Shown: positions 14,603 through 38,307 of the stretch, one piece after another
Layout: each line of letters opens with the position of its first letter
Numbering within the stretch: the stretch's first letter is position 1
Assembly: GCA_039815145.1 (NCBI GenBank)
Contig: JBCBZW010000035.1
Location: 1 to 44,507 of the forward strand
Reading direction: 5' to 3'
DNA: 44,507 nucleotides
Source of the DNA: Pseudomonadota bacterium
GTDB taxonomy: Bacteria > Pseudomonadota > Gammaproteobacteria > Steroidobacterales > JBCBZW01
The notes under the pieces: generated by a model
Seen by the model: only the letters and a program-made list of their open reading frames with translations
Told to the model about the DNA's origin: nothing
Database searches by the model: none
Translations under genes and position numbers: made by a program

Positions 14603-15361
14603 TTGGATCTCGCCACCATAGTAGGCTTCGTCGGCGCCTTTGCCGTCATGACGCTCGCCGTCATGTTGGGCGGCTCCGCGCTCGTCTTCATTAACCCGCC
14701 TTCCATCCTCGTCGTCTTCGGCGGTACGTTGATGGTGGTGCTATCGAAGTTCACCATCGGCCAGTTCCTCGCCGCCGCCGGCGTGGCGATGAAGGCGATC
14801 ATGGTGAAGGTCAGCGAGCCCCGCGCGCTCGTCGACAAGGCCGTGGAGCTAGCGCAGATGTCGCGCCAGGGCGGTCTGCTCGCCCTCGAGAGCGCCGAGA
14901 TTCCCGATGATTTCATGCAAAAGGGCATCGGCTACCTGGTCGACGGCCACGATGCAGCGACGGTGAAGACGCTCCTTAACAAGGACCTCGCCCTGACCAT
15001 CGATCGACACTCCCAGGGACAGGCCGTGTTCAAAGCGATCGGCGATGTCGCCCCCGCCATGGGGATGATCGGCACCCTGATCGGCCTCGTGCAGATGCTC
15101 TCGAACATGGACGATCCCAAGCAGATCGGTCCTGCCATGGCCGTCGCCCTGCTCACCACTCTCTACGGCGCCGTTCTCGCCAACGTGGTGGCCTTCCCCA
15201 TCGCGGACAAGCTCCTCCTGCGCTCGAAGGAAGAGAAGCACTCGAAGTCGCTCATCATCGACGCCCTGATCGCCATCCAGGATGGCCAGAACCCGCGGGT
15301 CATCGAGGGCATGCTCGAAAACTACCTGCCGGTGAAACAACGCGGTAGTAAGGACAGCTAG
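14603..15361 (+). CDS. motA: Flagellar stator subunit MotA (PomA type)
   Basis: Inner-membrane stator channel subunit that converts ion flow into rotor torque. The 252-residue product has four transmembrane helices, starting DLATIVGFVGAFAVMTLAVM. The channel-lining helices are GDVAPAMGMIGTLIGLVQML and MAVALLTTLYGAVLANVVAF. The N-terminus and compact length resemble PomA of sodium-driven polar motors rather than E. coli MotA. The start is a TTG at 14603 with GGGGGA upstream; PomA proteins begin MDLAT, which supports it. motB follows after 15 bases. Confidence 0.93.
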   Translation: MDLATIVGFVGAFAVMTLAVMLGGSALVFINPPSILVVFGGTLMVVLSKFTIGQFLAAAGVAMKAIMVKVSEPRALVDKAVELAQMSRQGGLLALESAEIPDDFMQKGIGYLVDGHDAATVKTLLNKDLALTIDRHSQGQAVFKAIGDVAPAMGMIGTLIGLVQMLSNMDDPKQIGPAMAVALLTTLYGAVLANVVAFPIADKLLLRSKEEKHSKSLIIDALIAIQDGQNPRVIEGMLENYLPVKQRGSKDS

Positions 15362-15376
15362 TGCTGGGCAACGCGC

Positions 15377-16414
15377 ATGGATGAGGAAGACGACCACGAG
15401 TGCGAATGCGAACCGGGTGCCCCCCTGTGGATGTCCACCTTCGCCGATCTGAGTACGCTGCTGATGAGCTTCTTCGTGCTCCTACTGGCGTTCTCGGAGA
15501 TGGACATCAACAAGTTCAAGGAGCTCGCCGGCGAGATCAAGAACGCCTTCGGCGTGCAGGCCGATGTGGAGACCCGCATCATGCCGCGCGGCACCAGCAT
15601 CATCGCGCGTGAGTTTCGCCCGGGAAAACCGGAGCCGACGCCGATCAAGTCAGTGCGTCAGTTCACCATCCAAACCAATAAGAACTCGCTCAAGTGGCTC
15701 GAGAAGCAGGGGGCGGACTTCGAGGACGTCGCGAAGGTGGTGGAGGCCCTTGAGGAGCAGCTGAAGGACGGCGAGCTGGAGCTGGAATGGGATCGCGACA
15801 CGATCACCATCCACATTCAGGAGAAGGCCTCCTTCGACAGCGGCTCGGCAGATCTCAAGCAGGACTTCGTGCCCGTCATCCATCGCATTCGCGATCTGCT
15901 GGCAGAGTTGTCAGGTCAGATCAGCATCGAGGGGCATACGGACAACGTGCCTATCGCCACCGCGCGTTTCCGCTCCAACTGGGAGCTGTCCGCCTCGCGC
16001 GCCGTCTCCGTGACCCAGGAGATGTTGGGCAATAAGGTGCTCGAACCGGAGCGCTTCCTGGTGATCGGCCATGCGGACACGGATCCGGTCGAGAGCAACG
16101 ACTCGCGCGAGGGCCGCGCGGCCAACCGACGGGTCGACGTGCTGATCGATCGCAACAAGGATGCCGAAGACGACATGTCGGAGGTGGTGGAACGCCTCGG
16201 CAGCGTGGTCGGCAAGGTCGAGGGCGGCCTGATGACCCTCACGCTACCGACGGATGAGCCGCTGCCTGAAGGTGAGGCCGCCGAGCCGATCCTGATCAAC
16301 GACGTGCGCGAACTGGCACCGTTCCTCCAGCGCCGAGCGGCGCCGGATCGGGTCAACGTGCCCCAAGCGCCAGCCGGGCCGGCCCCGACGGCCGTCTACG
16401 ACGAGGACATCTAG
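15377..16414 (+). CDS. motB: Flagellar stator subunit MotB (PomB type)
   Basis: Anchors the stator to peptidoglycan and carries the ion-binding aspartate. The 345-residue product has a short acidic, cysteine-containing N-tail (DEEDDHECECEPGAPLW), one transmembrane helix WMSTFADLSTLLMSFFVLLL with the key aspartate at D24, the plug region, and a C-terminal OmpA-like domain (IEGHTDNVPIATARFRSNWE, NRRVDVLID). FSEMDINKFKELAGEIKNAF and GTSIIAREFRPGKPEPTPI closely resemble PomB, implying sodium coupling (inference). No strong ribosome site is visible; translation may be coupled to motA. Confidence 0.93.
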   Translation: MDEEDDHECECEPGAPLWMSTFADLSTLLMSFFVLLLAFSEMDINKFKELAGEIKNAFGVQADVETRIMPRGTSIIAREFRPGKPEPTPIKSVRQFTIQTNKNSLKWLEKQGADFEDVAKVVEALEEQLKDGELELEWDRDTITIHIQEKASFDSGSADLKQDFVPVIHRIRDLLAELSGQISIEGHTDNVPIATARFRSNWELSASRAVSVTQEMLGNKVLEPERFLVIGHADTDPVESNDSREGRAANRRVDVLIDRNKDAEDDMSEVVERLGSVVGKVEGGLMTLTLPTDEPLPEGEAAEPILINDVRELAPFLQRRAAPDRVNVPQAPAGPAPTAVYDEDI

Positions 16415-16423
16415 GGTCTAGGA

Positions 16424-16909
16424 TCAGTGCGTGCGGACCTCCACCCGCACGCGCACCTCATCGCCCGGGTCGCGCGTCATGACGCGACGGTATTGCTCAC
16501 CGCGATAGCGGTAGGTGACCTCGTACCCGCTGACCCTCGGCTCCATCCGCTCGCGCTCACAGGCCTCACGGCGCTCCCGTGCCTGCTCGCGAGCGTGCGC
16601 TGCGGCCTCCGCTTCCTGCACGATCGCACTCGCGATCGACGCGGCAAACTCGCGCACCACCCCGAGCTCGGGCAGGCCCTGCGGATCCGTCTGCGTCGCC
16701 GGCAGGCACGCAGCGGGGAGCGGCGCCGCCTCGCGCAGGGCACGTACGTCGACCACCGGTGCGTAGTCGTAGTAGACCCGCGAGCGTGACTCGTGGCGCT
16801 GCGCGTCGCGATACCGAGTGTCTGCCTCGGCCGGCGATGCCAGCGGCAGCGCGGCTAGCGCCATCGCGAACACCACGAAGCAGGCCAAGCGGTGACTTAA
16901 GCCGAACAT
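16424..16909 (-). CDS. Small exported protein of unknown function
   Basis: I do not recognise a named family. The 161-residue product has a clear signal peptide (MFGLSHRLACFVVFAMALAA to SPAEA). The middle is charged, with a helix rich in alanine, arginine and glutamate (about 95-130). The C-terminal strand pair (YEVTYRYRGEQYRRVMTRDP then DEVRVRVEV) resembles the tail found after glycine-zipper domains of 17-kDa surface-antigen-like proteins, but no glycine zipper is present. The ATG at 16907-16909 has AAGGAG. It is the last gene of the 23317-to-16424 operon, 29 bases after the transglycosylase, and converges with motB. Confidence 0.7.
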   Translation of the reverse strand: MFGLSHRLACFVVFAMALAALPLASPAEADTRYRDAQRHESRSRVYYDYAPVVDVRALREAAPLPAACLPATQTDPQGLPELGVVREFAASIASAIVQEAEAAAHAREQARERREACERERMEPRVSGYEVTYRYRGEQYRRVMTRDPGDEVRVRVEVRTH

Positions 16910-16938
16910 GGGGTGGCTCCTTCGTTCATCGAATCTGC

Positions 16939-17772
16939 TCAAGGTAAGGCGAAGCCGGCACGACGCAGGGCTTCGCGACTCGCGCGAGAGTCCGCCTCGC
17001 TCTCCAGCACCACCGTAACGGCGAAGTTCCGTGCGTCGAGGCGCTGTGCGGAGAGCCTCAGCTGCGGATAGCGTCGCGACAAGGCGTGGGTCAGCGAATG
17101 CGCTCGCACCGGACTATCGAAGACGACCAGGTGATGGGTCTGCGGATAGGTTGCAGCAGGCGGTGCTGTGCTCGCCGATGCGCTCGCCGCTGGCTTGGCA
17201 GGTGGGACCGCGGGCGAAGCACCGCGATCGCCGCCCTTTGCCAGCTGTCGATAGATGTAGCGACTGTATCGCTGACCGGCGTTTGGAAGCGGCACATCGG
17301 CCTGCGTCGCCACACGGCCCGGACCCACGTTGTAGGCCGCCAGCGCGCGTTCCAGGTTTCCGTACCTACCGATCAACTCCTTCAGATAGCGGGCGCCCGC
17401 ATCGACGTTCCGACAGGGGTTCAGCAGCGTGCGAAGGTTGTGAATCCCGAGGTGCTTGGCCGTGCCTGGCCACTGAATCTGCATCAGCCCGTAGGCGTTC
17501 GCATGCGATCGGGCCAAAGGATCCAAACCGCTCTCACCTCGCCCCACAGCCAGGAGCAGCGCCTCGGGCAGCTCATAGCGTCGCGCGGACTCGGCGAAGC
17601 AGTGCTGGTAGGGGTAACCGGACGCTGGCAGGTGACGGGTCTGATCGGCGAAGAACTGCTGCCACGCCTGATCCGAGGTCAGCGCCTGTGCCGACGCCAT
17701 CCCAAGCATGGCGGCCGCGCAACAGGCGATCGCCAGCAGGGATCGTTTCGACGGGGCGCCTCGAGAGCTCAC
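16939..17772 (-). CDS. Lytic transglycosylase (SLT family) with SPOR-like tail
   Basis: Periplasmic enzyme expected to cleave glycan strands of peptidoglycan, forming 1,6-anhydro ends. The 277-residue product has a signal peptide (to about residue 30) and an SLT domain (about 55-175). The catalytic glutamate E80 is in GRGESGLDP, followed by AYGLMQIQWPGTAKHLGI and ALAAYNVGPGRV. The C-terminal ~70 residues (from HHLVVFDSPVRAHSLTHALS) have the pattern of a small alpha/beta SPOR-like domain, which would bind denuded glycans (inference). Its ATG overlaps the stop of the upstream gene by four bases (ATGA). Confidence 0.88.
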   Translation of the reverse strand: MSSRGAPSKRSLLAIACCAAAMLGMASAQALTSDQAWQQFFADQTRHLPASGYPYQHCFAESARRYELPEALLLAVGRGESGLDPLARSHANAYGLMQIQWPGTAKHLGIHNLRTLLNPCRNVDAGARYLKELIGRYGNLERALAAYNVGPGRVATQADVPLPNAGQRYSRYIYRQLAKGGDRGASPAVPPAKPAASASASTAPPAATYPQTHHLVVFDSPVRAHSLTHALSRRYPQLRLSAQRLDARNFAVTVVLESEADSRASREALRRAGFALP

Positions 17773-18536
17773 GGCGAGACCATCGCGAGGCCGCTACGGT
17801 CGGCGATCTGCTGCAGCATCTGCTGCGCTTCGTAGCCGGGCAGCGGCAGTACGGCCACCTGATGAAGACCATCGCCTGGCCGGCGCTCGACCCGGAAGGT
17901 AAACCCGGTCAGCAGCTCGAGGCGATCGGCGAAGCCTCGCGCGGAGACGGGGCTCGTGAAGGGCTGCCATACGTCGATCCACTGGCCAGCAGGTAAGGCG
18001 CTCTCGCCGAGGCCGTCTTCAACGCCGGGCATGGCAGCGGACGGCAGCCCATCGGCAGGCCCCTCCGCCAGCATCGCTTCGCTGAGCGAGTCGAAGCGGT
18101 CGCGCAGGCGCACGGCATCCTCTTCCTCTTCCTCTTCCAGAGGCGTCTCTTGCGCTGCGGGCAGCACGGCGCGGTCAGGCGCGTCGTTCTCGGGCATCGT
18201 CGCGGCGATGACTTCGGGCGCCGGTTCCACCTCATCGGGGGCACCCTCGCGCGCTTGGCTTGAGGTCGCTTCGCCCCCCTCGTCAGGCGCAGGAGCCACG
18301 GGCAGCACCGGATCGGCCTCAGCGGCCACCTGTTCGGGCTCTGCGGCGAACTGCGGTACCGGGTCCGGCGCGGTAGGTGAGGAAGGCTGCACCGGCGTCG
18401 CGGCCGGCGGCGGTGCCGCAGCGGGGGAAGGATCCTCGCTGAGCCACCATCCCAGGCCTAGCATTATCGCTAACCCCATGGCAGCGCCCAGCCAGGCCCC
18501 ACTCCAGAAGCGTCCTGCTTGCGTAGGTCGGGTCAT
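17769..18536 (-). CDS. Single-pass membrane protein with SPOR-like domain
   Basis: The 255-residue product starts at the ATG 18534-18536, overlapping the previous stop as ATGA. It has a short cytoplasmic tail, one transmembrane helix (about 12-32, GAWLGAAMGLAIMLGLGWWL), a long alanine/proline/glutamate-rich linker with a run of six glutamates (about 140), and a C-terminal ~70-residue domain. That domain (QWIDVWQPFTSPVSARGFAD to LPGYEAQQMLQQIADRSGLA) follows the SPOR layout: strand, helix, two strands, helix. This is the topology of FtsN/DamX-like proteins. Function is unknown. Confidence 0.75.
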   Translation of the reverse strand: MTRPTQAGRFWSGAWLGAAMGLAIMLGLGWWLSEDPSPAAAPPPAATPVQPSSPTAPDPVPQFAAEPEQVAAEADPVLPVAPAPDEGGEATSSQAREGAPDEVEPAPEVIAATMPENDAPDRAVLPAAQETPLEEEEEEDAVRLRDRFDSLSEAMLAEGPADGLPSAAMPGVEDGLGESALPAGQWIDVWQPFTSPVSARGFADRLELLTGFTFRVERRPGDGLHQVAVLPLPGYEAQQMLQQIADRSGLAMVSP

Positions 18537-20119
18537 CGCCCACCCTCCGAACTCACCATGCGCGTGGCGCGCCGCGGGGCGCGCACGGCCTGCCAATCCG
18601 CGCCCTCACCGAGGCGCAGGAGCGTCGATTCGAGGGCCAGCGCCCAACGCCGCAGATCACGCTCCCACTGAGGGGCATCGCAGCCGCGGCCGCCGGGGTG
18701 GCGTTCGAGTACCTCTCGTACCTGCTCCGCGTCCTGGCGCTCATCCACGGCGATGACGTACACGCTGTCGTAGGCCGTATCAGCTGCCGACTGCAGGCGC
18801 GCCGTGAGGATACCGGCAGCATCCGTCCGACGGCTCACCACCCGCGACCGTTCACTCACCCGACTCGCCTGCTGCAGCTGGCAACTGGCCGGCTGCCAAA
18901 GCCAGAAGACGGTGGCGGGGCGCGTCACCGCCACCTCCACCACGGCGCACTGGTCGTCTGCGCGACCACCGACCATGCTGCCCGCCGCCTGCGCGCAGGC
19001 GCGCGCGGAGCGCTGGGTCAGCATTCGCGGGCGCGAAAGCAGGGCCGTCGCCACCGTCGGCACACTCACCACCTCAGGCGGTGCCGGCACCACCACGGGT
19101 GCCCGCGGGGGCGCGAGGGGCTCGCCTCGTCGCGCGACGCGCGACGCCCTCACCTCACCGTTCACATAGGTGCTGGCGCTTGCCAAGAGGCCATCCTGGC
19201 GCTCCGATCGCGCCGACGATGGGGCCCGATTCAAGGTCACCCAGAACACGCTGAGATCGCCATCCAGCCCCTGGGTATGCAGTTCCAGGAGCAGATCGGC
19301 CTCTTCCCGGGTGGTGACTTGATGCCAGCCGTGATTGGCGCGCAAGGCGTGCATCAACAGCAAGCCCGCCTTCTGCAGGTGGGCATCGAGTTCAGCGGCG
19401 GGCTGCAGGTAGAGCGACGCCCCACGAGGCTCGCGCTGGCGTGCACCGGCCAGAATGCAGTCGATCTGGGCGGAGAGGTCCTTGGCGACCAGATCCGCCT
19501 GCCCCACCTCAAAGGGCAACTCACGGGCACCACGCGCCGATTCGGCCACCACATCGCGATCATGTGCATCCCGCTCCCGCGCGGTGAGCGCACCGGTCCA
19601 GCTGCCGCCGAAGCCGCCCACCCAGGTGCCCTCCGCGACGTCGAAGACCCGCACGTCCACCTGGGCACCGCCGCCGCCAACGGCGCGCACGTCGACGCCG
19701 ATTCGGTACTCCACCGCCGCCTGCGCCATGCAGGCCTGGGCCGACGGCGCCCCGCCCACCGGCACCACGCGCGTGCCGGCCTGGTCGGCCAGGGCCTTAC
19801 CCAGGTGGCGAACGATGGACTCGGTCAGCGCGTCGCTGCGCACGCGAGCTTGCGTGCCGCGCATGGCCACCACCTGCACCGCCTGCCCGCGCAGACGCGG
19901 ATGTTCGGTAAAGCGCTGGCTCAGGGTTGGCTCGAGATCCTCGGTGAGCCAGGCCATGAGCGAGGTTTGCGGCGATTGTGCGAACACCGATGACGCTGCA
20001 CCGAGCACGAGTAACAGCCCAAGCGCCAACGCCACCGTCAACGGCAGTCGGTTGTCCCTGTGGGCGACCCTAACCCCAGAGCGCAAGGGGCGTCTGCGTC
20101 GAAGATTGATCCGGGCCAT
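18533..20119 (-). CDS. Large exported protein of unknown function
   Basis: Unrecognised. The 528-residue product has an arginine-rich N-terminus and a hydrophobic signal or anchor (about 26-48, LTVALALGLLLVLGAASSVFAQ). An N-terminal region (about 50-225) begins SLMAWLTEDLEPTLSQRFTE and continues with helix/strand alternation faintly reminiscent of FlgO or CsgG/LpoB-like periplasmic domains; that likeness is weak. A second region follows (about 235-320, LLLELHTQGLDGDLSVFWVT), then a proline-rich stretch and a C-terminal domain with several cysteines. Its ATG overlaps the stop of the upstream gene by one base (TGATG), tying it to the channel pair. Confidence 0.72.
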   Translation of the reverse strand: MARINLRRRRPLRSGVRVAHRDNRLPLTVALALGLLLVLGAASSVFAQSPQTSLMAWLTEDLEPTLSQRFTEHPRLRGQAVQVVAMRGTQARVRSDALTESIVRHLGKALADQAGTRVVPVGGAPSAQACMAQAAVEYRIGVDVRAVGGGGAQVDVRVFDVAEGTWVGGFGGSWTGALTARERDAHDRDVVAESARGARELPFEVGQADLVAKDLSAQIDCILAGARQREPRGASLYLQPAAELDAHLQKAGLLLMHALRANHGWHQVTTREEADLLLELHTQGLDGDLSVFWVTLNRAPSSARSERQDGLLASASTYVNGEVRASRVARRGEPLAPPRAPVVVPAPPEVVSVPTVATALLSRPRMLTQRSARACAQAAGSMVGGRADDQCAVVEVAVTRPATVFWLWQPASCQLQQASRVSERSRVVSRRTDAAGILTARLQSAADTAYDSVYVIAVDERQDAEQVREVLERHPGGRGCDAPQWERDLRRWALALESTLLRLGEGADWQAVRAPRRATRMVSSEGGR

Positions 20120-21147
20120 CAGGAAGCTCTCCTTGCCAATGGTTTCATCAGGTAAGCGGCGACGGGTTGGGCTGCGAGGGTGGGCACCAGGCGCACCTGG
20201 CCGTCGGCGGCGATCTGCAACTCCCCGCCCCGGGGATCGCGTAGCAGCTGATCGATCGAGCGCCGCGTGCTCGCCGGCAGCACCACCCCCCAGCGGCGCA
20301 CGGTGCCGGCGCTTCGCCCGCGGCTTCGGGTGTAGGCAGCGCGCACTTGTGCCGGAACGCTGGCGGGATCCATGTCGTGCATCTGCGAGGGCGCGGGCGC
20401 CGTGTCGAAGGCGTAGCGCCCCGCCGCGCTGGAGAGGCGGCTCGTGCCCTGCCCATCGACCGCGAACAGGCTCACCACATCGCGCTGCACGAGGGCGAGC
20501 AAGGCCTGGGCATCGACGAAGCGCAGGGTGAACACCGGCGTACGGTCAGGCGGCGGCGAAGGTGTGACAGGCCTCGGCGGCGGCGACGCGTCCAGAGGCT
20601 TCGGCGGCGGCACCACCTCCTCGACCACGGTGGGGGTCGGAATCGGCACGGGCGCTCGCTCAGCTCGCATGGGCGGCGGCTCCTGGGGAGGCGGAGGCAG
20701 CGCTCGAACGACACGGGCCGGCAACGGCGCCACGGGCGCCTCAACCTTGCGCTCGATGCGCTCGGGTGGCGGCGCCGGTTCGACGACAGGGGCGAGCGGC
20801 GCCACCTTCGCAGGCGCCGGCGTCGGTCGCGCCACCACGGGCGGCGCAGGTGGCGTCGGCGTTGGCTCTGGTGCCTGCATTTCTTTTACGGGTGGCGCAG
20901 GCACCGATGGCTCAGGCGCGCGCGTCGGGCCTGCGACGACCGGCGCTTGCGCGACGGTGACCGGCTCCGCAGGCGCCTCGCTGGCCGTCGGCGTCGCGGG
21001 CAGCGACTGCACCAGCGCGAAGATCGCCACCAGGCACAGGCCCAGCATCGCCATGAAACGCATCACGTCCGTCTGCAGGTCTTCCGCACCACCGCCGCCT
21101 TCGGCGCCAGCGGCACCTTGGTAGGGATACGAATGCCAGGGGAGCAT
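20119..21147 (-). CDS. TolR/MotB-like one-helix partner with proline-rich linker
   Basis: The 342-residue product has a glycine-rich cytoplasmic tail, then LQTDVMRFMAMLGLCLVAIF, a single transmembrane helix (about 28-48) with an aspartate, D27, at its cytoplasmic edge. About 170 residues of proline/alanine-rich periplasmic linker follow, then a C-terminal domain (about 205-342). The layout matches ion-channel partners such as ExbD, TolR, TonB and MotB, although the aspartate is at the helix end rather than inside it. It lies six bases after the channel-like gene; GAGGAG precedes its ATG. The partner role is inferred. Confidence 0.72.
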   Translation of the reverse strand: MLPWHSYPYQGAAGAEGGGGAEDLQTDVMRFMAMLGLCLVAIFALVQSLPATPTASEAPAEPVTVAQAPVVAGPTRAPEPSVPAPPVKEMQAPEPTPTPPAPPVVARPTPAPAKVAPLAPVVEPAPPPERIERKVEAPVAPLPARVVRALPPPPQEPPPMRAERAPVPIPTPTVVEEVVPPPKPLDASPPPRPVTPSPPPDRTPVFTLRFVDAQALLALVQRDVVSLFAVDGQGTSRLSSAAGRYAFDTAPAPSQMHDMDPASVPAQVRAAYTRSRGRSAGTVRRWGVVLPASTRRSIDQLLRDPRGGELQIAADGQVRLVPTLAAQPVAAYLMKPLARRAS

Positions 21148-21153
21148 GGCGAT

Positions 21154-21876
21154 CTACTCCTCTCGCATCGCCGCCAGGGCGTGGCGGGCAGGGGCGGACG
21201 CGGGTGAGGGTTCGCTAGGCGACGGCGCAGCGCGCAACTTGCGCTCGATGTTGCCGAGGGTGGTCTGCACATGCTCCGCGGAGCGGCGCGCCTGGCCGGC
21301 GTACGCTCGCTTCAGCGCGTGACCGAACAACAGGGTCTTGGCCGTGCGCAGGAGATAGCCGCCGACGCCGCCGACGATGGTGCTCGACAGGGCCAGAAGA
21401 ATCCCCCCATCGACCATCCGCTGCAGCACGGCGAAGGCTCCCGCGCTGGTGATCTCGTCCGGATCACCTAGGGCGAACAATAGGGCACCACGCATGCCGA
21501 TGGCGGTCCAGATCACCCCGGCGCCGAAGTAGAGGCTCGTCCACAGGTCGCTCAGGTGGTCAGCCTGAGCGATCGCATCGATATCTTGCGGTTGGGCCGC
21601 GAGCACGCGCCGAAGGCGCACGAGGGTGGCGGCGAAGAGGAGCGACAGCGCAGCGAAGACCGGCACCGAGCTGCCGAGATTACGCTCCAACCACCCCAGC
21701 ACCGCCGGCGCGGGCTCGCGGGTCAGGGTCAGCCACGCGGTGTCGTGCAGCAGGTAGGCCGCCGTCACCGCGCTCACCAGCGCCACGAACACGCCGAAGA
21801 GCAGACCGTCGCGAAAAGCCGCGCCCTCCCCCATCGTCGGGTTGGCGGGCGCAGTGCTGGTGCCGACGTGGTTCAC
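21154..21876 (-). CDS. MotA/TolQ/ExbB-like membrane channel protein
   Basis: The 240-residue product has four predicted helices (about 24-43, 70-88, 115-136, 157-176) with a cytoplasmic segment between the second and third. Helix 3, YFGAGVIWTAIGMRGALLFA, and helix 4, DGGILLALSSTIVGGVGGYL, keep the small-residue/threonine pattern of the last two pore helices of MotA/TolQ/ExbB proteins. A charged C-terminal tail follows. I recognise the superfamily pattern but not the exact family. Its ATG overlaps the lipoprotein stop by four bases. Confidence 0.72.
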   Translation of the reverse strand: MNHVGTSTAPANPTMGEGAAFRDGLLFGVFVALVSAVTAAYLLHDTAWLTLTREPAPAVLGWLERNLGSSVPVFAALSLLFAATLVRLRRVLAAQPQDIDAIAQADHLSDLWTSLYFGAGVIWTAIGMRGALLFALGDPDEITSAGAFAVLQRMVDGGILLALSSTIVGGVGGYLLRTAKTLLFGHALKRAYAGQARRSAEHVQTTLGNIERKLRAAPSPSEPSPASAPARHALAAMREE

Positions 21877-22430
21877 GGTGCGCCGCCCTCGCAGGCCTCA
21901 CAGGTGGCTGCGATGACCAATTCCGCCTGTTGCATCAGGCGATCGGCGCGGTAGTAGGAGTCCTTGTCGGCGCTCACCTTGAGTAAGCCGCGCTCCTTGT
22001 CGGTGAGCTCGGCCTGCAAGGCGTCCATGAACACGTCCTGGCGCGGGCAGGTGTAGGCGCAGTTGTTGTAGTCACCGAGCAAGGAGACGAACTTGATGTT
22101 GAAGTAGCGGTTGTAGAGCTGCTCCGCCTGGCGTCGACTGAGCACGCCGTTGTCCGCCGACCACATGAGGAAGTTCGAGAACTGGCGCTTGTTATCGGTG
22201 CCGGGATCGCCCTCGGCAATCGCCAGCAGGTGATCCAAGTAAGCATCGAAGCTCGCCTCACAGCCAGCGTCCAGCTGATCCTTGGTGAAGGCGATCGCAG
22301 CGTCGAGATCGCGGGTTCCAGGCATGCTGCACACCTGAGGCTCCGGCGTGGTCATACAGCCGCCGAGGGCGGCCAGGGCGCCCAGCGCCGTCACGGCGCG
22401 AGCGAGGGAGAAGAAGCTAATACGGTTCAT
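21873..22430 (-). CDS. Putative outer-membrane lipoprotein
   Basis: Unrecognised 185-residue protein. The signal peptide ends in the lipobox ALGGC (cysteine at residue 25); the following residue is methionine, so outer-membrane sorting is expected. The mature part is helical and contains several cysteines, including CAYTCPRQD and ATCEACEGG. TTKDQ-like charged helices and NFLMWSADNGVLSRRQAEQL give no family match. AGGAG precedes the ATG. Encoded between the periplasmic helical protein and the channel protein. Confidence 0.75.
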   Translation of the reverse strand: MNRISFFSLARAVTALGALAALGGCMTTPEPQVCSMPGTRDLDAAIAFTKDQLDAGCEASFDAYLDHLLAIAEGDPGTDNKRQFSNFLMWSADNGVLSRRQAEQLYNRYFNIKFVSLLGDYNNCAYTCPRQDVFMDALQAELTDKERGLLKVSADKDSYYRADRLMQQAELVIAATCEACEGGAP

Positions 22431-22447
22431 CGGTTCGATCTCCTGAG

Positions 22448-23317
22448 CTACATTTCCAGGGGACTGCGCCAGGGAGCGTCATCGCCGCTCGGGCGCGGCC
22501 CGGGTATCGGTTGGGCGTCCTGCTCGCCGAACAGGATGGCCTTCACGCCGCCCACCACCTGCTGCATCTCGGGGGTGATCTGGCCGAAGGACTGATTGAG
22601 TTGCTCGAGCAGGGTGGCGCGGGCGATTTCCTGGCGCGTCTGGGCGATCAGCTCGCTGGCCTCCTGCATGTCCAGGTAGATGTCCGCAGCGACCACGGCC
22701 AGAGACTCGTCCGCCCCGCCGGTGCTGGTGGCGACCAGCTGGTGGTACTGGCGGAAACGCTGGGAGAGGCGCAGGCCGGACTTACCGCGCATGGCAGGAC
22801 GCTCGCGCGTGTTCGCACTACCGCTGCCGTCGCCGCCGAGGAGCGTGTCCTGCAGGGCCCAGGGCGAGAGCTTGTGCCCAAGCTCGTTGCGCAGGCGCTT
22901 CTCAAGGCCCAGGCGGGTGGCGTTCACGGCGCGCTCCATCTCCGGGAGCTGCGTCTCCATGACGTTCAGCATCTCGAGGTAGGTGGCCCCCAGGTTGCGC
23001 GCGATGCTGCTACAGCCCGGATCCCCCTCGGCGCCCTCACAGCGCGCTTCGCGGTAGAGCGACTCCTGCTCTTCGAGACGGGCGATCACCCCCTGCAAGC
23101 CAGACTCCATCTGCTCGGCGACTTGCCCGGTCAGGCGAATCTCCTCGATCACGGTGGTGGGGAACAGACGGATGGTGGGCGCGGTCCCATCGGCAGATTG
23201 GGCGACACCGCCGAGCAGGAGCAAGGCGGTGAGGGATACGGCCGCAAGGGCGGATCCCTGGCGAGATGGACGTCCCGGTGGGGCGTCCCCGGTGTGCGGT
23301 AAGGCTGGCTGAGGCAT
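22448..23317 (-). CDS. Periplasmic helical protein of unknown function
   Basis: First gene of the operon. The 289-residue product has a long N-region and a signal peptide (hydrophobic AAVSLTALLLLGGVAQSA). The rest is almost entirely helical and probably coiled-coil (LTGQVAEQMESGLQGVIARL, LNVMETQLPEMERAVNATRL, DIYLDMQEASELIAQTRQEI), with a cysteine pair around residues 93 and 101. No enzyme motif is visible. GGAG lies upstream of the ATG. It resembles a structural or adaptor protein; function is unknown. Confidence 0.72.
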   Translation of the reverse strand: MPQPALPHTGDAPPGRPSRQGSALAAVSLTALLLLGGVAQSADGTAPTIRLFPTTVIEEIRLTGQVAEQMESGLQGVIARLEEQESLYREARCEGAEGDPGCSSIARNLGATYLEMLNVMETQLPEMERAVNATRLGLEKRLRNELGHKLSPWALQDTLLGGDGSGSANTRERPAMRGKSGLRLSQRFRQYHQLVATSTGGADESLAVVAADIYLDMQEASELIAQTRQEIARATLLEQLNQSFGQITPEMQQVVGGVKAILFGEQDAQPIPGPRPSGDDAPWRSPLEM

Positions 23318-23409: not shown

Positions 23410-23489
23410 TTAACGCAATCTTTAGAAGAGGGGTCGCGCGACCCACTACGTTGCGACGCCGCAAGCCTGCCGGGCGTCAGGGAGAACGC

Positions 23490-24038
23490 ATGCTGAACTG
23501 GACCGTTCGCATCACCACCTTTGTGATGCTGCTTGCCGTGGGCATCTACGCCGTGGGGGCGCTGGTCTTACCGGATGAGAAACGGGTGAGCCGCAGTATC
23601 GATGTGGCGGCCAGCGAGGCGGCGGTCTTTAACGTGGTGAACGACATGCGCGCCTTCAATCGCTGGTCGCCCTGGGCGGAGCTCGACCCGAACACGCGCT
23701 ACGAATACCAGGGCCCGCGCCAGGGCGTCGGCGCCGCGATGAGCTGGACCAGCCAAAGCCCTCAGGTAGGGTCCGGCTCCCAGCTGATCGTCGCCAGCGA
23801 GCCGAATGATCTCGTGCGTCTACGCCTGCAATTCGGTGCTGACCAAACAGCGATGGCCGAGCTGGAACTCGCCTCCAGCCCCAACGGCGGCACGCGCGTC
23901 ACCTGGCACCTCGACATGGACTTCGACGGCGACATCCTGCAGCGCTACGTGGGGGCGTTCGTGCTCGAAGGGGCGATCGGCCGCGACTACGAGCGCGGCC
24001 TCACGAATCTGAAGAACTTGCTGGAACGCGGGTCCTGA
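23490..24038 (+). CDS. SRPBCC (polyketide cyclase/START-like) family protein
   Basis: The 182-residue product has an N-terminal hydrophobic helix (about 3-27, TVRITTFVMLLAVGIYAVGA), so it is membrane-anchored or exported. The SRPBCC fold follows: SRSIDVAASEAAVFNVVNDM, FNRWSPWAELDPNTRYEY, and a C-terminal helix DYERGLTNLKNLLER. Such domains bind hydrophobic ligands in a deep pocket; the ligand here is unknown. The ATG at 23490 has GGAG five bases upstream. It stands alone, diverging from the envelope operon and converging with the FimV-like gene. Confidence 0.82.
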   Translation: MLNWTVRITTFVMLLAVGIYAVGALVLPDEKRVSRSIDVAASEAAVFNVVNDMRAFNRWSPWAELDPNTRYEYQGPRQGVGAAMSWTSQSPQVGSGSQLIVASEPNDLVRLRLQFGADQTAMAELELASSPNGGTRVTWHLDMDFDGDILQRYVGAFVLEGAIGRDYERGLTNLKNLLERGS

Positions 24039-24071: not shown

Positions 24072-26468
24072 TTACTCGCTGGAAGCGCGCTTCGGGCGAG
24101 CGTCGTGCGCGTCGTCGTCGGAGGCGACGGAACGGTCGGACCGTGAGCTGGCATCGAAGGCCTCTTCGACGGCGCCACGACCCAGCATGTCCATGGTGAT
24201 ACGCAGCGTCGTCGCGTCCGTGGAGCCAGCCGCCGTCGTCGCGCGCGCCGTCTCCTTCTCTGCGGCATCCTCGAAGGCCTGACCCGCGGGCACGCCGCGC
24301 AGGGGATCATCCACGCCGTGCAGGATGTCGGTGGCAGCGATCGCCGCATCGATGCTGTCGGTGTCCTGCGCCTGCGCCATCTCGGCTGCCAGGTGCGCCG
24401 TGTCCATCGCCAGTGTGCGCGAGCGAACCGTCGGGTCGTCGATCTCCTCTTCCGGCAAGGTGTCGACGCCGTCCAGGGTGAACTCCGGCCCTTCCACGCG
24501 GGCCGTGAGTTCCTCTTCGCCCGCACCTTGGCTAGCCGCCGCAGCCTGCGCCGCCGCAGCCTCTTCGTCGCTCACGATCTTGGCGCGGACGGTGGGGAAG
24601 TCATCGGTGAACGGCAACTCGTCCGGTTCCCCCAGATCGAAGTCCACCAGGGGATCGGCAGCCTGTGCAGCGGCGGGAGCCGGTGAGCCGCCGGTGGCGC
24701 TCGCGAACAGCGCCTCGTCGGGGCACAACTGACGCCCCATCGCCAAGGCACCCCGCCAGAAGGTGGCGTGCTCGCGCAGCGACGCTTGGTAGGCCCGTGC
24801 TGCCTCAGCGAAGGCGTCGGGCTTGTTGGCAGCAAAGTACACCTCCAGCAGCTTGGCCTTGAGAGCGAGGCTGCGCGGTTCGCGCAGGAGGGCAGCTTGC
24901 ACCAGTTCGCTCGCCTGCCCGTGATGGCCGTAGGCCAGCAGGATATCGGCCTCCGCGACCGCATCGACCGGCCCGTCTTCCTCGTCGCTTCGCAGTTCCG
25001 ACGGAGTCGCCTGCGCGGCGTAGGGAATGTTCGTGCGAGGCGGCGGCGGGGGTAGCTCGGCGGCGAAGGGCACCGCGTCATCCGCGGTATCCGGTGCGGG
25101 CGGTATCGCCGCAGCGGGCGGCGCGGTGAGTTCCTCGTGCAACGGCCGTGGCTGGACGCGCCCCTCGCTTGCCTGCGCAGTGCCAGGCGCCGCCCGGCGA
25201 CGCAGGCGCGTGAGCCCAACCGCGAGCGCTCCCAAGGTAAACCAGAGCACCGCACCGGCGATGCTGCCCACCAAACCCGAGCGTTGGGCTTGCGCGGTGT
25301 CGCCCACCGGCGCTGTCTCGGCGCTCGCCGCCTGGGCCGTGTCCACGAGCGACGGGACGCCGGCGGTCAATTGAGGCTGTGGATCTACCACCGCCCCGTC
25401 TTGCAGGTTGGACAGCTCCGCCCGCAGCCGATCGAGTTCGGCTTCGCGCGCTGCTAACAGTTGAGCGGTCGAGTCGAAGCGGGAGTTGAGCGCCTCCAGC
25501 TCTTCGTTGAGCTCCGCGTTGCTGGCCCGGGTGCTGGCGATTTGGCGCCGCACGGCCGACAGCAATTCCTGGTCGGCCGCAGCAGCAGGGGGCGGCGCGG
25601 AGGAGGCGAGCTGAGACTGGGCCGCTTCGAACAGGGCGGACTGCTCGGCAGCACTCACCGCCGGAGCGACGCTTGGCGCGGGCGCGGTGGGCGACGCCGC
25701 GAGAGCCTCCGCGTCGCCGATCGCGACGGCGGCCGGAATGCTCAAGACCGCACCTGCTTCGAGGCGATCCATGCTCCCGGCGAAGGCTTGCGGATTTGCT
25801 TGGTAGATGGCTTCCATCGTTCGTTCGAGGCTGACACCACTGTCGCGCACACGGACGGCGATCTTCCACAGCGACTCGCCACGCACGACAGGCCCGTACT
25901 CCATGCCGGGCTCGATCGGTGTACGCGGCTGGGCGGCGGCCACGGGTTCGCGTGAGGTGCGTGCGACCGGTGCCGGGCTCGACACTAATTGCGGGTCCCG
26001 CTGGGGGGCAGCGACCACGGCGCTGGGGGTGACGGCAGCGGTGAGGGGCGGCGCCGGCGCGCGCTCGCCACCCAAGCCGGGCGGGTCGAGCAGGATAGTG
26101 TAGGCGCGCTGCATGCGCCCTCGGCTCCAGTCCGCCTGCACGACGAGCGTAGCGATAGGCTCGACGATGCTCTGGCGAGAGGTGAGGTGGAGCACGGCTC
26201 GGCCGCTGGCGTCACGGCGAGCACTGATATCGATGGTGGCGAAGGCGGACGGGTAGTCGACGCCCTGGGAGGCGAACACCTCGCGTGATGCGAGGGTGGC
26301 GGTTAGCTGCTCGAGATCAGCAGCGGTGGCCCCGACCAGCTCGATCTGCGCGTCTAGGCGCTGATTGAGTCGCGAGTTGACCTCGATGTTGCCCAAGCCC
26401 AGTGCCCACGAGGCGCTCGGCAGGCAGGTTGCTGCGGCGACCAGCGCCCTGATGCCTACCCGGTCCAT
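24072..26468 (-). CDS. FimV-like polar hub / pilus assembly protein
   Basis: FimV-family proteins (HubP in Vibrio) bind peptidoglycan and organise the cell pole, including flagellar and chemotaxis proteins. The 798-residue product has a signal peptide, the N-terminal FimV domain (about 22-150, starting ALGLGNIEVNSRLNQRLDAQ), a LysM-type domain (about 190-245, GPVVRGESLWKIAVRVRDSG), a coiled coil (about 303-355), one transmembrane helix (about 398-420), and a cytoplasmic acidic region with TPR-like helices (about 490-580). The usual short FimV C-terminal motif (LDLARAYIDMGD-like) is not visible at the end, which instead reads TLRITMDMLGRGAVEEAFDA plus a charged tail. AGGAAG precedes the ATG. 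Confidence 0.87.
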   Translation of the reverse strand: MDRVGIRALVAAATCLPSASWALGLGNIEVNSRLNQRLDAQIELVGATAADLEQLTATLASREVFASQGVDYPSAFATIDISARRDASGRAVLHLTSRQSIVEPIATLVVQADWSRGRMQRAYTILLDPPGLGGERAPAPPLTAAVTPSAVVAAPQRDPQLVSSPAPVARTSREPVAAAQPRTPIEPGMEYGPVVRGESLWKIAVRVRDSGVSLERTMEAIYQANPQAFAGSMDRLEAGAVLSIPAAVAIGDAEALAASPTAPAPSVAPAVSAAEQSALFEAAQSQLASSAPPPAAAADQELLSAVRRQIASTRASNAELNEELEALNSRFDSTAQLLAAREAELDRLRAELSNLQDGAVVDPQPQLTAGVPSLVDTAQAASAETAPVGDTAQAQRSGLVGSIAGAVLWFTLGALAVGLTRLRRRAAPGTAQASEGRVQPRPLHEELTAPPAAAIPPAPDTADDAVPFAAELPPPPPRTNIPYAAQATPSELRSDEEDGPVDAVAEADILLAYGHHGQASELVQAALLREPRSLALKAKLLEVYFAANKPDAFAEAARAYQASLREHATFWRGALAMGRQLCPDEALFASATGGSPAPAAAQAADPLVDFDLGEPDELPFTDDFPTVRAKIVSDEEAAAAQAAAASQGAGEEELTARVEGPEFTLDGVDTLPEEEIDDPTVRSRTLAMDTAHLAAEMAQAQDTDSIDAAIAATDILHGVDDPLRGVPAGQAFEDAAEKETARATTAAGSTDATTLRITMDMLGRGAVEEAFDASSRSDRSVASDDDAHDARPKRASSE

Positions 26469-32352: not shown

Positions 32353-34785
32353 GTGATGCTGTACCCGTCGTTCCTCGCCCCGCAGCAGCAGCTGCTGCGG
32401 TGGCGCCCCCTGCTTGCCGCCGCACTCACCCTGTCACTGATGTCCGCCGTGCCGGCGCGTGCGGACGATCCGCCGACGATCGCCGAGCTCACGGCGGACT
32501 TCGCCCATCACCCGGGCTTTCTCGATCTCTACTTCTCCGCCCAGGAGCACAGCTTGTACGTCGCCGTGCCGGCTGAGGGCACCGATGCGCTGTACGTGAA
32601 CTACCTGGCGGCGGGGGTCGGCTCTAACGACATCGGGCTCGATCGCGGTCAGATCGGCAATACGCGCTACGTGCAACTCCAGGTGCACGGGGATCGGGTG
32701 CTGGTGGTGCAGCCTAACCTCGCCTATCGCGCTCGCTCCGAGAACGCCGACGAGCGCCGTGCGGTGACCGAAGCCTTCGCCAGTTCCGTGCTCGCATCCC
32801 TGCCCATCAAGGCGCGCGACGACCAGCACGTACTGGCGGATCTCACCGCGTTTGCCACCACCGACGTGCACGGCATCGTCGGCCGCCTGCGCGGCACCAA
32901 GCAGGGCAACTACAAGCTCGACGGCGCCCGCAGCCTGGTGCTCGGCGATGCGCTGGAGTCCTTCCCCAAGAACACGGTGGTGGAGGCCCTGCTCACGTTC
33001 TCCGGCAGCGATCCAGGGAACTACCTGAGCGATGTCACGCCGACGCCCCAGGCCCTGAGCGTCCGCATCCGCCACGACTTCATCGCTGCCCCCGACGCAG
33101 GCTATCGCCCGCGCACCTATCATCCACGTTCGGGAGGTTACTCGCGGGAGTTCTACGACTTCGCGGCGCCCTTGGACAGCCCCCTGCGCAAGCAGATCGT
33201 CGCCCGCCATCGCCTGCAACGGGACGCCGAGAGCGGTCAGACCCTCGACCCCATCGTCTACTACGTTGATCGCGGCGCCCCAGAGCCCATCCGCTCCGCC
33301 CTGATGGAAGGGGCGAGCTGGTGGGCGCAAGCCTTCGCCCACGCCGGCTACCCGGACGGCTTTCGCGTCGAGCTGCTGCCCGAGGGCGCCAGCCCCCTGG
33401 ATATTCGCTACAACGTGATCCAATGGGTGCACCGCGCGACCCGCGGCTGGTCCTACGGCTGGGGCGTCATCGACCCGCGCACGGGAGAGATTCTGAAGGG
33501 CCACGTCACCCTGGGCTCCCAGCGCGTACGCCAGGACCAACTGATCGCCGAGGCCCTAACAGGCCCCTTCGGTGAAGGGGGTGACGGCGGCGCCGCAGCG
33601 CGTGAGATGGCCTTGGCACGCCTACGCCAGCTTGCCGCCCACGAGGTGGGCCATACGCTCGGCCTCGCCCACAACTTCGCGGCCAGCGGCCAGGGTGATG
33701 CGTCGGTGATGGACTACCCGCATCCCTACATCCGCCTCGATGGACGCGGCAAGATCGATATCACCAAGGCCTACTCGGTCGGCGCCGGTCGCTGGGATCT
33801 GCACGCCATCGATTATCTCTACCGCGGGTTCGCGCAGGCTGAAGAAGCGCCCGGCCTGCGTCAGATCATCGCGGCCGGCGCCGACCTCGCGTACCTGTCG
33901 GACGCCGACGCCCGAAGCCCCTCGACCGCTGCCCCTGGCGCCCACCTCTGGGACAATGGGGCAGACCCGCTGGCGCGGCTCGAGGAGCTGATGCGTATCC
34001 GTGCTCTGGCCCTGAAGAAGTTCTCGGCGGCAGTGCTGCGCCCGGGCCGGCCCCTCTACGAAGCCGAAGCGCGCCTGGTGCCCGTCTACCTGGTGCATCG
34101 CTATCAGCTGGAAGCGGCCGCCAAGCTCATCGGCGGCACCCATTACCGCTACGGCCTGCGCCGCGAAGCGGTGCCTGACCCTGCGCCGGTGAGTGCGAAG
34201 CGACAGCTACGGGCGATCGATGCCGTGCTCGGGGCCAGTGCAGTCGACACGCTCCTGGTTCGCCCCCACATACGTGCCCTGATGCATCCGCCGGAGAGCG
34301 AGTCGGCACGCACGCGCGAATACTTCACCCACCGGACGGGGCGGGTCTTCGACCCCAACGCCCCGGTGCGCGCCGGCGCCCAACTCACCGCGAGCCTGCT
34401 GCTGGATTCCCAACGCGCAGAACGCCTGCTGGCGCAGCAGGCACAGGACCCCGCACTACCGAGCCTCGATGTGCTGCTCGAGCGCATCGCGACCGATCGC
34501 ATCCAGCTGAGCGAAGGGGGAACGTCGGCCAAGGCCGTGGCCGCGCGGGAGATCGCCTGGACCTTCCTACGGGAGCTGCAGCGCCTGAGCATCGACGCCA
34601 ACGCGTCTCAAGGCGTGCGCACCACCGTGATGGGCACGCTGCGTGACATCCAAGGGTGGGCATCGGAGCAGGCGGCATCGTCTTACCACCAGGAACTCGC
34701 GGCCGAACTCACTCGCTTCCTCGAGCGGCCATCGGAAGCGTCGCTGGGGCCCCGGCATCCGATCCCGCCGGGCTCACCGATCTGA
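32353..34785 (+). CDS. Secreted zinc-dependent metalloprotease (DUF5117/DUF4953 type)
   Basis: The 810-residue product has an N-terminal signal peptide (to about ARADDPP). A beta-rich N-terminal region precedes the metzincin-like zinc site HEVGHTLGLAHN, with H430, E431, H434 and H440. Downstream are SVMDYPHPYIRLDGRGKIDI, with a Met-turn-like MDYP, and a helical C-terminal domain. This arrangement is that of large secreted zinc-dependent metalloproteases of bacteria; substrates are unknown. It starts at GTG 32353 (or the adjoining ATG 32356) after TAAGGAAA. It may share the metB transcript, 38 bases away. It converges with cheR with only eight bases between stop codons. Confidence 0.87.
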   Translation: MMLYPSFLAPQQQLLRWRPLLAAALTLSLMSAVPARADDPPTIAELTADFAHHPGFLDLYFSAQEHSLYVAVPAEGTDALYVNYLAAGVGSNDIGLDRGQIGNTRYVQLQVHGDRVLVVQPNLAYRARSENADERRAVTEAFASSVLASLPIKARDDQHVLADLTAFATTDVHGIVGRLRGTKQGNYKLDGARSLVLGDALESFPKNTVVEALLTFSGSDPGNYLSDVTPTPQALSVRIRHDFIAAPDAGYRPRTYHPRSGGYSREFYDFAAPLDSPLRKQIVARHRLQRDAESGQTLDPIVYYVDRGAPEPIRSALMEGASWWAQAFAHAGYPDGFRVELLPEGASPLDIRYNVIQWVHRATRGWSYGWGVIDPRTGEILKGHVTLGSQRVRQDQLIAEALTGPFGEGGDGGAAAREMALARLRQLAAHEVGHTLGLAHNFAASGQGDASVMDYPHPYIRLDGRGKIDITKAYSVGAGRWDLHAIDYLYRGFAQAEEAPGLRQIIAAGADLAYLSDADARSPSTAAPGAHLWDNGADPLARLEELMRIRALALKKFSAAVLRPGRPLYEAEARLVPVYLVHRYQLEAAAKLIGGTHYRYGLRREAVPDPAPVSAKRQLRAIDAVLGASAVDTLLVRPHIRALMHPPESESARTREYFTHRTGRVFDPNAPVRAGAQLTASLLLDSQRAERLLAQQAQDPALPSLDVLLERIATDRIQLSEGGTSAKAVAAREIAWTFLRELQRLSIDANASQGVRTTVMGTLRDIQGWASEQAASSYHQELAAELTRFLERPSEASLGPRHPIPPGSPI

Positions 34786-34798
34786 CCGGACCGTCAGA
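34781..34798. repeat. Short inverted repeat over two convergent stop codons
   Basis: TCTGAC (34781-34786) and GTCAGA (34793-34798) pair perfectly around a six-base loop. The repeat contains the stop codons of both the metalloprotease (34783-34785) and cheR (34794-34796). It lacks T-runs, so it is at best a weak bidirectional transcription or mRNA-stability element. Confidence 0.35.
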
Positions 34799-35630
34799 GG
34801 CGCTTGTAGATGGTGTGCCCCAGGCGTTCGTAGCGATCGGCGGGGCCCGTCAGCTGCTCGGAATGGCCGATCATCAGCGTGTCGCCGGGTCGCTGGAGAT
34901 CCGACTGACGCTGGAAGATCCGCGACTTCGTCTCGAGGTCGAAGTAGATGACGACGTTGCGATTGAAGATTACGTCGAAGGGGCCCTTCATCGGCCAATC
35001 GCCGAGCAGGTTCAGGCGCTTGAAGGTGAGCAGCTGACGCAATTCCGGCACGATCTCGTAGCTGCCGTCGGGGCGCTTCTGCGTCCAGCGGCTGCGGAAG
35101 TCTGCGGGCACCTTGGCTTCCTGGTAGATGCCCGCCTTGGCGTGGTCCAGCACCTGCGTGTCGATGTCGGTGGCGAGGATCTTGACGTCGTTGCGAATCG
35201 TGCGCGACGGGCCACCGAGCACGTCCATCACCACACTCGCGATCGAGTAGGGCTCCTCTCCGGTGGAGGATGCACAACACCAGATGCGAATGCGCTTCTG
35301 GTCGCGCAACGCCGGCAGCACGGTCTGCGCGAGGTAATCGAAGTGATGCCGCTCGCGAAAGAACGAGGTCATGTTGGTGGTGATGATGCTCGGTAGCGCA
35401 TCCATCTCACCGCTGGTGGGGTCCTTCAGCAGCGCGATGTACTGATCGAAGTTACTGACCCCGATCTTGCGCATACGCTTGGCGAAGCGCGAGTACGCCA
35501 GCTGCCGCTTGATGTCCGGCAGCTGCACGCCGATCGTCGACGTGACCACCTCGCGGATGGTCTCGAAGTGTTGATCGGTGAACTCGAAGTTCTCGTCTTG
35601 GCCTTCGGCCGAGGGGGAGGAAGCAACCAT
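34794..35630 (-). CDS. cheR: Chemoreceptor methyltransferase CheR
   Basis: Transfers methyl groups from SAM to glutamates of chemoreceptors for adaptation. The 278-residue product has the N-terminal helical domain (FTDQHFETIREVVTSTIGVQ) and the SAM-binding domain: IRIWCCASSTGEEPYSIAS, KILATDIDTQVLDHAKAGIY and PFDVIFNRNVVIYFD. The C-terminus DTLMIGHSEQLTG is conserved. GGAG precedes the ATG. It is the last gene of the minus-strand chemotaxis operon, three bases after cheB. Confidence 0.96.
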   Translation of the reverse strand: MVASSPSAEGQDENFEFTDQHFETIREVVTSTIGVQLPDIKRQLAYSRFAKRMRKIGVSNFDQYIALLKDPTSGEMDALPSIITTNMTSFFRERHHFDYLAQTVLPALRDQKRIRIWCCASSTGEEPYSIASVVMDVLGGPSRTIRNDVKILATDIDTQVLDHAKAGIYQEAKVPADFRSRWTQKRPDGSYEIVPELRQLLTFKRLNLLGDWPMKGPFDVIFNRNVVIYFDLETKSRIFQRQSDLQRPGDTLMIGHSEQLTGPADRYERLGHTIYKRL

Positions 35631-35633
35631 TCT

Positions 35634-36719: not shown

Positions 36720-36729
36720 CGGGTTCTCC

Positions 36730-37359: not shown

Positions 37360-37420
37360 GCCTCTCCCCTCTCACCCTGACCAGGGCGACCGCGCCCAGC
37401 GGGCGCAGCGCGCTCCTGCG

Positions 37421-37930: not shown

Positions 37931-37942
37931 ACAGCCGCCCGC

Positions 37943-38248: not shown

Positions 38249-38307
38249 TGCTCTAACTCCTTCTCCCCGCCAACGTGTTTCGGCCCACCGCGCTGCGCAC
38301 TACGCCC

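Follow-up and report, generated by a model that had tools for sequence, protein, structure and literature searches.

What does a closely packed run of envelope genes do when only one of its products is recognized by the family databases? The question is raised by positions 16424-23317 of a 44,507-nucleotide stretch of gammaproteobacterial DNA (contig JBCBZW010000035.1 of assembly GCA_039815145.1; the whole stretch, at its full length, is called the window), where an original prediction made from the letters alone had placed an unnamed operon around a MotA/TolQ/ExbB-like channel and had read it as a further ion-driven machine spanning the envelope. All eight open reading frames of that prediction were confirmed, every one on the minus strand, and they are referred to here as p1 through p8 in the order of transcription. 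The close spacing also holds through p7, with gaps of 6-17 bp and overlaps of 1-4 bp: p1 and p2 are separated by 17 bp, p2 and p3 overlap by 4 bp (GTGA), p3 and p4 are 6 bp apart, p4 and p5 share 1 bp (TGATG), and the p5-p6 and p6-p7 joints are 4-bp overlaps (ATGA and GTGA, respectively). Only p7 scores above a Pfam cut-off, none of the eight does so in NCBIfam, and PDB sequence profiles gave no meaningful match for p1 through p5 (best E 0.026). Since the p3 model ranks channels of the superfamily first and the genes are neighbors in other genomes, the best reading is an unnamed envelope machine of the MotA/TolQ/ExbB kind. In its full form, a p3/p4 motor coupled to peptidoglycan remodeling, we give this reading a probability of roughly 0.6. 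It departs from the original prediction in that the unit has seven genes and its link to motAB is not general.

Seven genes that stay together

Relatives were collected by scanning named genomes with a p3 profile, which gave 129, and 80 of the 129 were kept as loci; the scan patterns used to select these contain the Thr-x-x-Gly residues of p3. A locus was counted as testable if it offered at least 1.7 kb ahead of the p3 start and at least 5.2 kb beyond it, with no N-gap nearby, and 50 of the 80 are of this kind. In 47 of them, p1 through p7 lie in the same order on one strand, the median spacing at the joints being between -4 (an overlap) and 24 bp, and this order is kept beyond chance expectation. 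The remaining 3 (L091, L106, and L107, of the Desulfobacterales type) are without p6 only, and there the distance from p5 to p7, 189 bp or less, leaves little or no room for it. Most of the genes missing from the 30 other loci fit the ends of contigs; the exceptions are L073 and L100, which have N-gaps within p4 and no p5-p7 beyond, and L115, where a p2-like gene lies 3′ of p3 and not 5′. Conservation of the neighborhood had been set beforehand as a test of the prediction, and the genes do adjoin elsewhere. The conserved unit is, however, seven genes (six in the three Desulfobacterales-type loci) and not the eight first proposed, p8 being accessory.

Two other searches lead to the same set. 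With p3 as the tblastn query, relatives were found in 18 of 97 genomes from the order to which the window belongs, the window's own genome counted; in the 17 others, p1 through p4 adjoin in order, and p5 comes next in 16, the last contig stopping after p4. A profile of p1 alone, applied to a class-wide sample, matched at 7 places, spread over 6 of 369 genomes, and at all 7 it is followed downstream by p2, p3, and p4. Five of these places belong to the 80 loci and one to the window itself, which leaves a single new one (L182). The three sets are not independent samples, because DNA is shared between them: 14 of the 17 near relatives, like five of the p1-anchored places, are stretches of DNA already counted within the 80. 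One p1-anchored genome (G817) has two copies, L071 and L102. These two (both JASJBY), and likewise L054 and L069 (both JASJBB), are p3 loci on separate contigs of one metagenome-assembled genome; L071 and L102 are rather diverged, and such pairs could be paralogous operons or mixed bins. Across a phylum-wide sample, the p3 profile picked out 1 of 398 genomes, the window's own, and the gene set must therefore be considered uncommon.

Its carriers belong to the Gammaproteobacteria and the Desulfobacterales, and the record titles of the relatives name Woeseiaceae, Chromatiales, Ectothiorhodospiraceae, Motiliproteus, Marinobacterium, tubeworm endosymbionts, and Desulfobacterales. In a tree of p1+p2+p3 with 70 rows, which omits L103 and the loci with incomplete p1, p2, or p3, four desulfobacterial-type rows group together. 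As for the alignments used below, A5 omits L094 (contig end) and L103 (fused frame), A6 omits L039 (over-long start) and loci that are cut or contain N, and A7 omits L087; A8, A10, A11, and A12 consist of the window and 40 of 70, 30 of 60, 29 of 58, and 25 of 78 usable loci, respectively, and A10, the p6 alignment, begins three residues inside p6. Among 72,556 plasmid records, none matched p1, in a search that did not extend to phage or viral sequences, and no description of the p1-p7 set was found among the listed titles and abstract openings of open-licence papers.

The channel-like subunit and its partner

The protein on which the reading turns is p3 (21154-21876, minus strand), 240 residues long and begun from a GTG start. 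An AlphaFold2 model built from 79 rows (predicted local distance difference test score, pLDDT, 85.9; predicted template modeling score, pTM, 0.68) has helices at residues 17-45, 58-67, 70-93, 99-136, and 139-216. When this model was compared with the PDB by VIA-align, entries of ExbB, TolQ, and Zorya took rows 1-7 and 17 of the top 20 rows at Z 8.7-10.0 (for example, 5sv0_C, Z 10.0 over 150 residues at 4.9 Å), with aligned ranges starting at model residue 58-64; because the tool warns that Z below about 13 is common among helical bundles, the weight of this result lies in its concentration on one superfamily and not in Z. The original prediction had made its claim depend on p3 not proving to be of an unrelated fold, and the ranking favors it. 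Foldseek, one of the checks that it had proposed, agrees in part, in that the first two rows are TolQ (E 0.075) and ExbB (E 0.17), neither of them significant.

Profile comparison by hhalign gave p3 29.5% with MotA, 2.65% with TolQ, and 2.55% with ExbB. The MotA score, 32.7, was equalled by none of 60 block shuffles, the highest of which reached 24.1, and by no control profile; the controls included reversed p3 (0.1-0.6%), and eight families of flanking genes were also compared. Moreover, the motifs fall where a channel of this superfamily would have them. T124-x-x-G127 aligns with the GT-x-x-G of the first pore helix, and the second motif (T166-x-x-G169, in the stretch GGILLAL(S/T)T-x-x-G) aligns with the GI-x-x-AL-x-TT-x-x-G of the second pore helix, in the MotA, TolQ, and ExbB profiles alike, three agreements that are not independent because the profiles share members. 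Both threonines and both glycines are invariant in 79 of 79 rows, an invariance that is partly built in because the scan patterns include motif residues. The motifs are also present in all 18 tblastn rows and at all 7 p1-anchored places, and the clearest check outside the selection by scan pattern is L182, which neither pattern matched exactly and which yet keeps both motifs and the aspartate of p4. It is thus well supported that p3 is a very divergent relative of MotA, TolQ, and ExbB, a homology that we infer.

Its partner, p4 (20119-21147, minus strand; 342 residues), has the layout of a MotB/ExbD-like protein, with a single transmembrane helix (beginning LQTDVMRF in the window), a spacer, and a C-terminal domain (20119-20553). 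All 71 aligned rows have Asp27, and the aspartate is also found at 7 of 7 p1-anchored places. The spacer ranges from 35 to 210 residues over the 71 rows, with a median of 93, and is mostly proline-rich; in 14 of the 71 rows it is charged, with less than 8% proline. The single helix with its aspartate and the proline-rich linker had been described correctly for the window copy, though at 148 residues (a figure that depends on where the boundaries are called) the linker is shorter than the approximately 170 first given. With its ends fixed and its middle exchangeable, p4 suits a part that bridges a distance. Three loci (L092, L096, and L102) have spacers of 181-210 residues with less than 8% proline, and the variation amounts to a natural series of lever lengths.

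The C-terminal domain of p4 is modeled confidently as an alpha/beta fold (pLDDT 89.7, pTM 0.77), for which neither Foldseek (best E 0.32) nor VIA (best Z 2.5) found a PDB match. Against the PDB and viral models together, nothing reached E ≤0.001, and among the matches listed there was no ExbD, OmpA, or TonB, which does not exclude them. At the level of profiles, it scored 32.4% against ExbD, with 0 of 60 shuffles as high, a result suggestive of a link to that family. The window p4 itself has no Pfam match, PF02472 included, and shows neither MotB_plug nor OmpA, both of which the MotB encoded in the window does show. On a metagenome contig with the label Desulfobacterales (L103, 1113-2753), p3 and p4 form one open frame of 546 codons; its p3 looks by eye like the gammaproteobacterial type (L073), and the frame could be a natural fusion, a frame or sequencing error, or contamination.

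A wall-cutting enzyme, a lipoprotein, and their companions

The one gene of the operon with a match above a Pfam cut-off is p7 (16939-17772, minus strand), an exported lytic transglycosylase with an SLT domain (PF01464; E 4.6e-26, 91.1 bits against a cut-off of 21.3), as had been proposed. The match is found in 30 of 30 p7 members, and Glu80-Ser81, which we take to be the catalytic Glu-Ser, is invariant in all 30 rows. Its C-terminal domain is shared with p6 (17769-18536, minus strand), a protein with one N-terminal transmembrane helix and an acidic, proline-rich middle: the two end domains match by hhalign at 94.6% (E 7e-8), with 0 of 40 shuffles as high. The original prediction had called both proteins SPOR-like. 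The kinship between them stands, and the SPOR part of the claim fares less well, since PF05036 is matched weakly in 6 of 31 p6 members (best E 0.028) and in 1 of 30 p7 members (E 0.032), while hhalign links the p6 domain to SPOR weakly (23.8%, 0 of 40 shuffles as high) and the p7 domain not above shuffles (7.6%, 2 of 40 as high).

The other members of the set are exported proteins of less familiar kinds. The lipoprotein that had been predicted is p2 (21873-22430, minus strand; 185 residues), with a lipobox cysteine, Cys25, in 26 of 26 rows. Cysteines 34, 57, 124, 177, and 180 are each invariant in the same 26 rows and are perhaps disulfide-bonded. The residue after the lipobox cysteine is Met in the window and Asp in 3 of the 26, and for this reason sorting to the outer membrane is not certain throughout. 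The most conserved of the proteins aligned is p1 (22448-23317, minus strand; 289 residues), exported and probably helical and periplasmic, whose 40 relatives are 45-60% identical to the window copy; it belongs to no known family, having no match above cut-off in Pfam (best E 0.052) and none in NCBIfam. The large exported protein p5 (18533-20119, minus strand; 528 residues) resembles DUF4384 toward its C-terminus in certain relatives, with a match in 5 of 65 members at a best E of 6.8e-11, and the window p5 itself has no DUF4384 match in Pfam. Kinship of the p5 N-terminus with TolB_N was considered and found unsupported, 5 of 40 shuffles scoring as high.

Outside the conserved core, p8 (16424-16909, minus strand) is a small exported protein with matches, on either strand, in 13 of the 80 loci. 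Its frame could also begin at TTG 16942, the only start that gives a 4-bp overlap with p7; ATG 16909 is preferred because GGAG sits just 5′ of it. The p8 profile also matches neighbors on the opposite strand in L035, L060, and L076; the neighbor in L035 contains a stretch rich in glycine that has no counterpart in p8.

A probable further envelope machine and its alternatives

As a machine, the operon could work as follows. Several p3 subunits would form a channel ring in the inner membrane, and p4 would serve as both axle and transducer, its helix standing inside the ring with the ion-binding aspartate, in an assembly presumably of the 5:2 kind. The exchangeable spacer of p4 would cross the periplasm and the peptidoglycan, so that the end domain could grip periplasmic or outer-membrane parts, for which the lipoprotein p2, p1, and p5 are the candidate partners. 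Ion flow through p3/p4 would move p4, and this movement would drive or position membrane-anchored p6 and the lytic transglycosylase p7 with which it shares an end domain. The likely outcome would be local remodeling of the peptidoglycan and of its attachment to the outer membrane, apart from the Tol-Pal genes of the same genome.

Set beside known systems, the pair is like ExbB-ExbD and TolQ-TolR in joining a channel subunit that has two Thr-x-x-Gly pore helices to a one-helix partner with a conserved Asp, and ExbB and TolQ entries lead the PDB rows for the p3 model. It is unlike them in the extra N-terminal helix of p3 (17-45), in the near absence of an insert between helices 70-93 and 99-136, in the long p4 spacer, and in an end domain without a PDB match; moreover, none of p1 through p8 in the window matches PF01618 or PF02472. 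From MotA-MotB, which it resembles in its four long helices, in the best p3 profile match, and in the length of the partner's periplasmic part, it differs in the missing OmpA and MotB_plug matches of p4 and in a p3 model that has no room for a torque-generating cytoplasmic domain. Non-flagellar relatives, according to PMC12505986, have two- and three-helix cytoplasmic domains. Zorya entries (ZorA-ZorB) rank 4, 5, and 14 for the p3 model, whereas no PADLOC match was found at E ≤1 among the eight window proteins, and a role in antiphage defense was accordingly rejected. Like Tol-Pal, the set would join a motor of the envelope to a lipoprotein and to proteins of the periplasm, probably in connection with peptidoglycan; unlike Tol-Pal, it shows no TolA, TolB, or Pal match in Pfam or NCBIfam, and TolQ-, TolR-, and TolB-type matches (the last to TolB_N) lie within about 2.5 kb on contig C45 of the same genome. 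That the operon would have no Tol-Pal or Zorya hallmark had thus been foreseen correctly. In PMC12204202, TolQ-like motors are proposed whose in-pore helix itself bears a force-transducing domain, with vWA end domains, and more trans-envelope systems of the TolQ-like kind are said to await discovery. Like these TPH-vWA motors, p4 would have the in-pore helix and the transducing end domain in one protein, with no separate TolR or ExbD; unlike them, p4 is single and has another end domain, whereas theirs end in a vWA fold and are mostly heterologous pairs. It also differs in belonging to a set with SLT, lipoprotein, and DUF4384-like genes. Because the family models are not passed, the p1-p7 set is not counted as a member of any named system; it resembles the TolQ-like kind with an in-pore transducer.

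A number of results weigh against the preferred reading and are best taken together. None of the 79 p3 members is above the Pfam cut-off (a MotA_ExbB match appears in 1 of 79, at E 0.43), and the window p3 has no Pfam match and is not among the nine PF01618 matches of its own genome. Foldseek gave p3 no match at E ≤0.001 and put an unrelated BAR domain in row 3 (E 0.21), and the VIA Z values fall within the tool's warning. The p3 scores against TolQ (22.6) and ExbB (22.1) were equalled or exceeded by 3 and 2 of the 60 shuffles, respectively; an SSF transporter control beats p3 for both (7.6-9.7%, raw 28.3-29.2), and a FeoB control, at a raw 23.8 against ExbB, also exceeds it. Since these controls do not beat p3 for MotA, only the MotA score stands out. 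The transmembrane helix of p4 gave no profile signal against ExbD (55 of 60 shuffles as high), the invariance of the p3 motifs is in part a product of selection, the absence of p6 from three loci means that its pairing with p7 is not essential, and the function assigned to the operon is drawn from sequence and models. From the same perspective, p3 and p4 could be a static membrane scaffold with no ion motor, the resemblance to ExbB arising from helix composition; the failure of p3 to beat membrane-protein controls against TolQ and ExbB, its insignificant Foldseek rows, and the absence of a match for either protein in Pfam or PDB sequence profiles would all be expected of it. We consider this quite improbable in view of a MotA score that no shuffle or control profile equals, motifs in register with three channel families (albeit families whose profiles share members), a structural ranking headed by ExbB, TolQ, and Zorya, and an invariant Asp at the start of the only transmembrane helix of p4.

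A less distant alternative, though still an unlikely one, is that the motor is real and powers export or gliding, as GldLM, AglRQS, and SiiAB do, with p7 merely opening a hole for assembly. Trans-envelope assemblies often have a dedicated lytic transglycosylase, the p4 spacer could carry force to the outer membrane, and the proline-rich part of p6 has an NCBIfam match to GltJ at E 0.0042; that match reaches 16.2 bits against a cut-off of 450, however, and the eight window proteins have no match in Pfam or NCBIfam to a secretin, outer-membrane barrel, usher, adhesin, or secretion ATPase, even if p1, p2, or p5 could hide such a role. Nor do the flanking genes speak for export or gliding: those recognized among the recurrent families include FeoB (25 loci), phosphoribosyltransferase (27), cation efflux (25), and aminotransferase (20), with a response regulator (16) also matched, although only 9 of the 20 family representatives have a Pfam match and some of the 11 without one may be antisense frames. 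The surroundings of the window copy would suggest instead an accessory to flagella or chemotaxis, for it sits between motAB (14603-16414, with flagellar genes beyond), a gene whose product matches the N-terminal domain of FimV (E 5.6e-33; 24072-26468) past its upstream end, and CheA/B/D/R-type genes (34794-40620). The position next to motAB, as predicted, is real in the window and not general: motA, motB, and fimV relatives are near the operon in only 2 of 98 loci (84 distinct), the window and a genus mate. Flagellin is present in 10 of 18 carriers against 28 of 79 non-carriers (Fisher p 0.18) and absent from the other 8 carriers, so that a flagellar link is unsupported and this explanation very hard to credit, even allowing that distant flagellar genes would be missed because many loci are short. 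The neighborhood also includes a Polyketide_cyc2-type gene (23451-24038), between the operon and the FimV-domain gene, and a Met-zincin-type protein (DUF5117/DUF4953; 32353-34785), between the operon and the che genes.

The reading that we prefer, a p3/p4 motor coupled to peptidoglycan remodeling, also has a bolder form, to which we would give somewhat less than an even chance: a new lineage of ion-driven motor, ranking with Tol-Pal and TonB, that remodels the wall by way of a lytic transglycosylase and a lipoprotein of its own. In it, p4 alone would combine the roles of axle, lever across the periplasm, and grip, and would end in a fold that has no relative among solved structures. Such a lineage would have been overlooked because its motor scores below the family models. 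Indeed, the p1-p7 set is easily missed, since surveys start from recognized homologs and the motor is invisible to models of the Pfam level. With a model almost devoid of a cytoplasmic insert between the second and third long helices, p3 is a natural test of how much channel is needed. If the reading is true, the known envelope machines would gain one that is driven by ions and has a dedicated wall-cutting enzyme, and it would be one found in many metagenome-assembled genomes of the Woeseiaceae and in the genomes of tubeworm endosymbionts.

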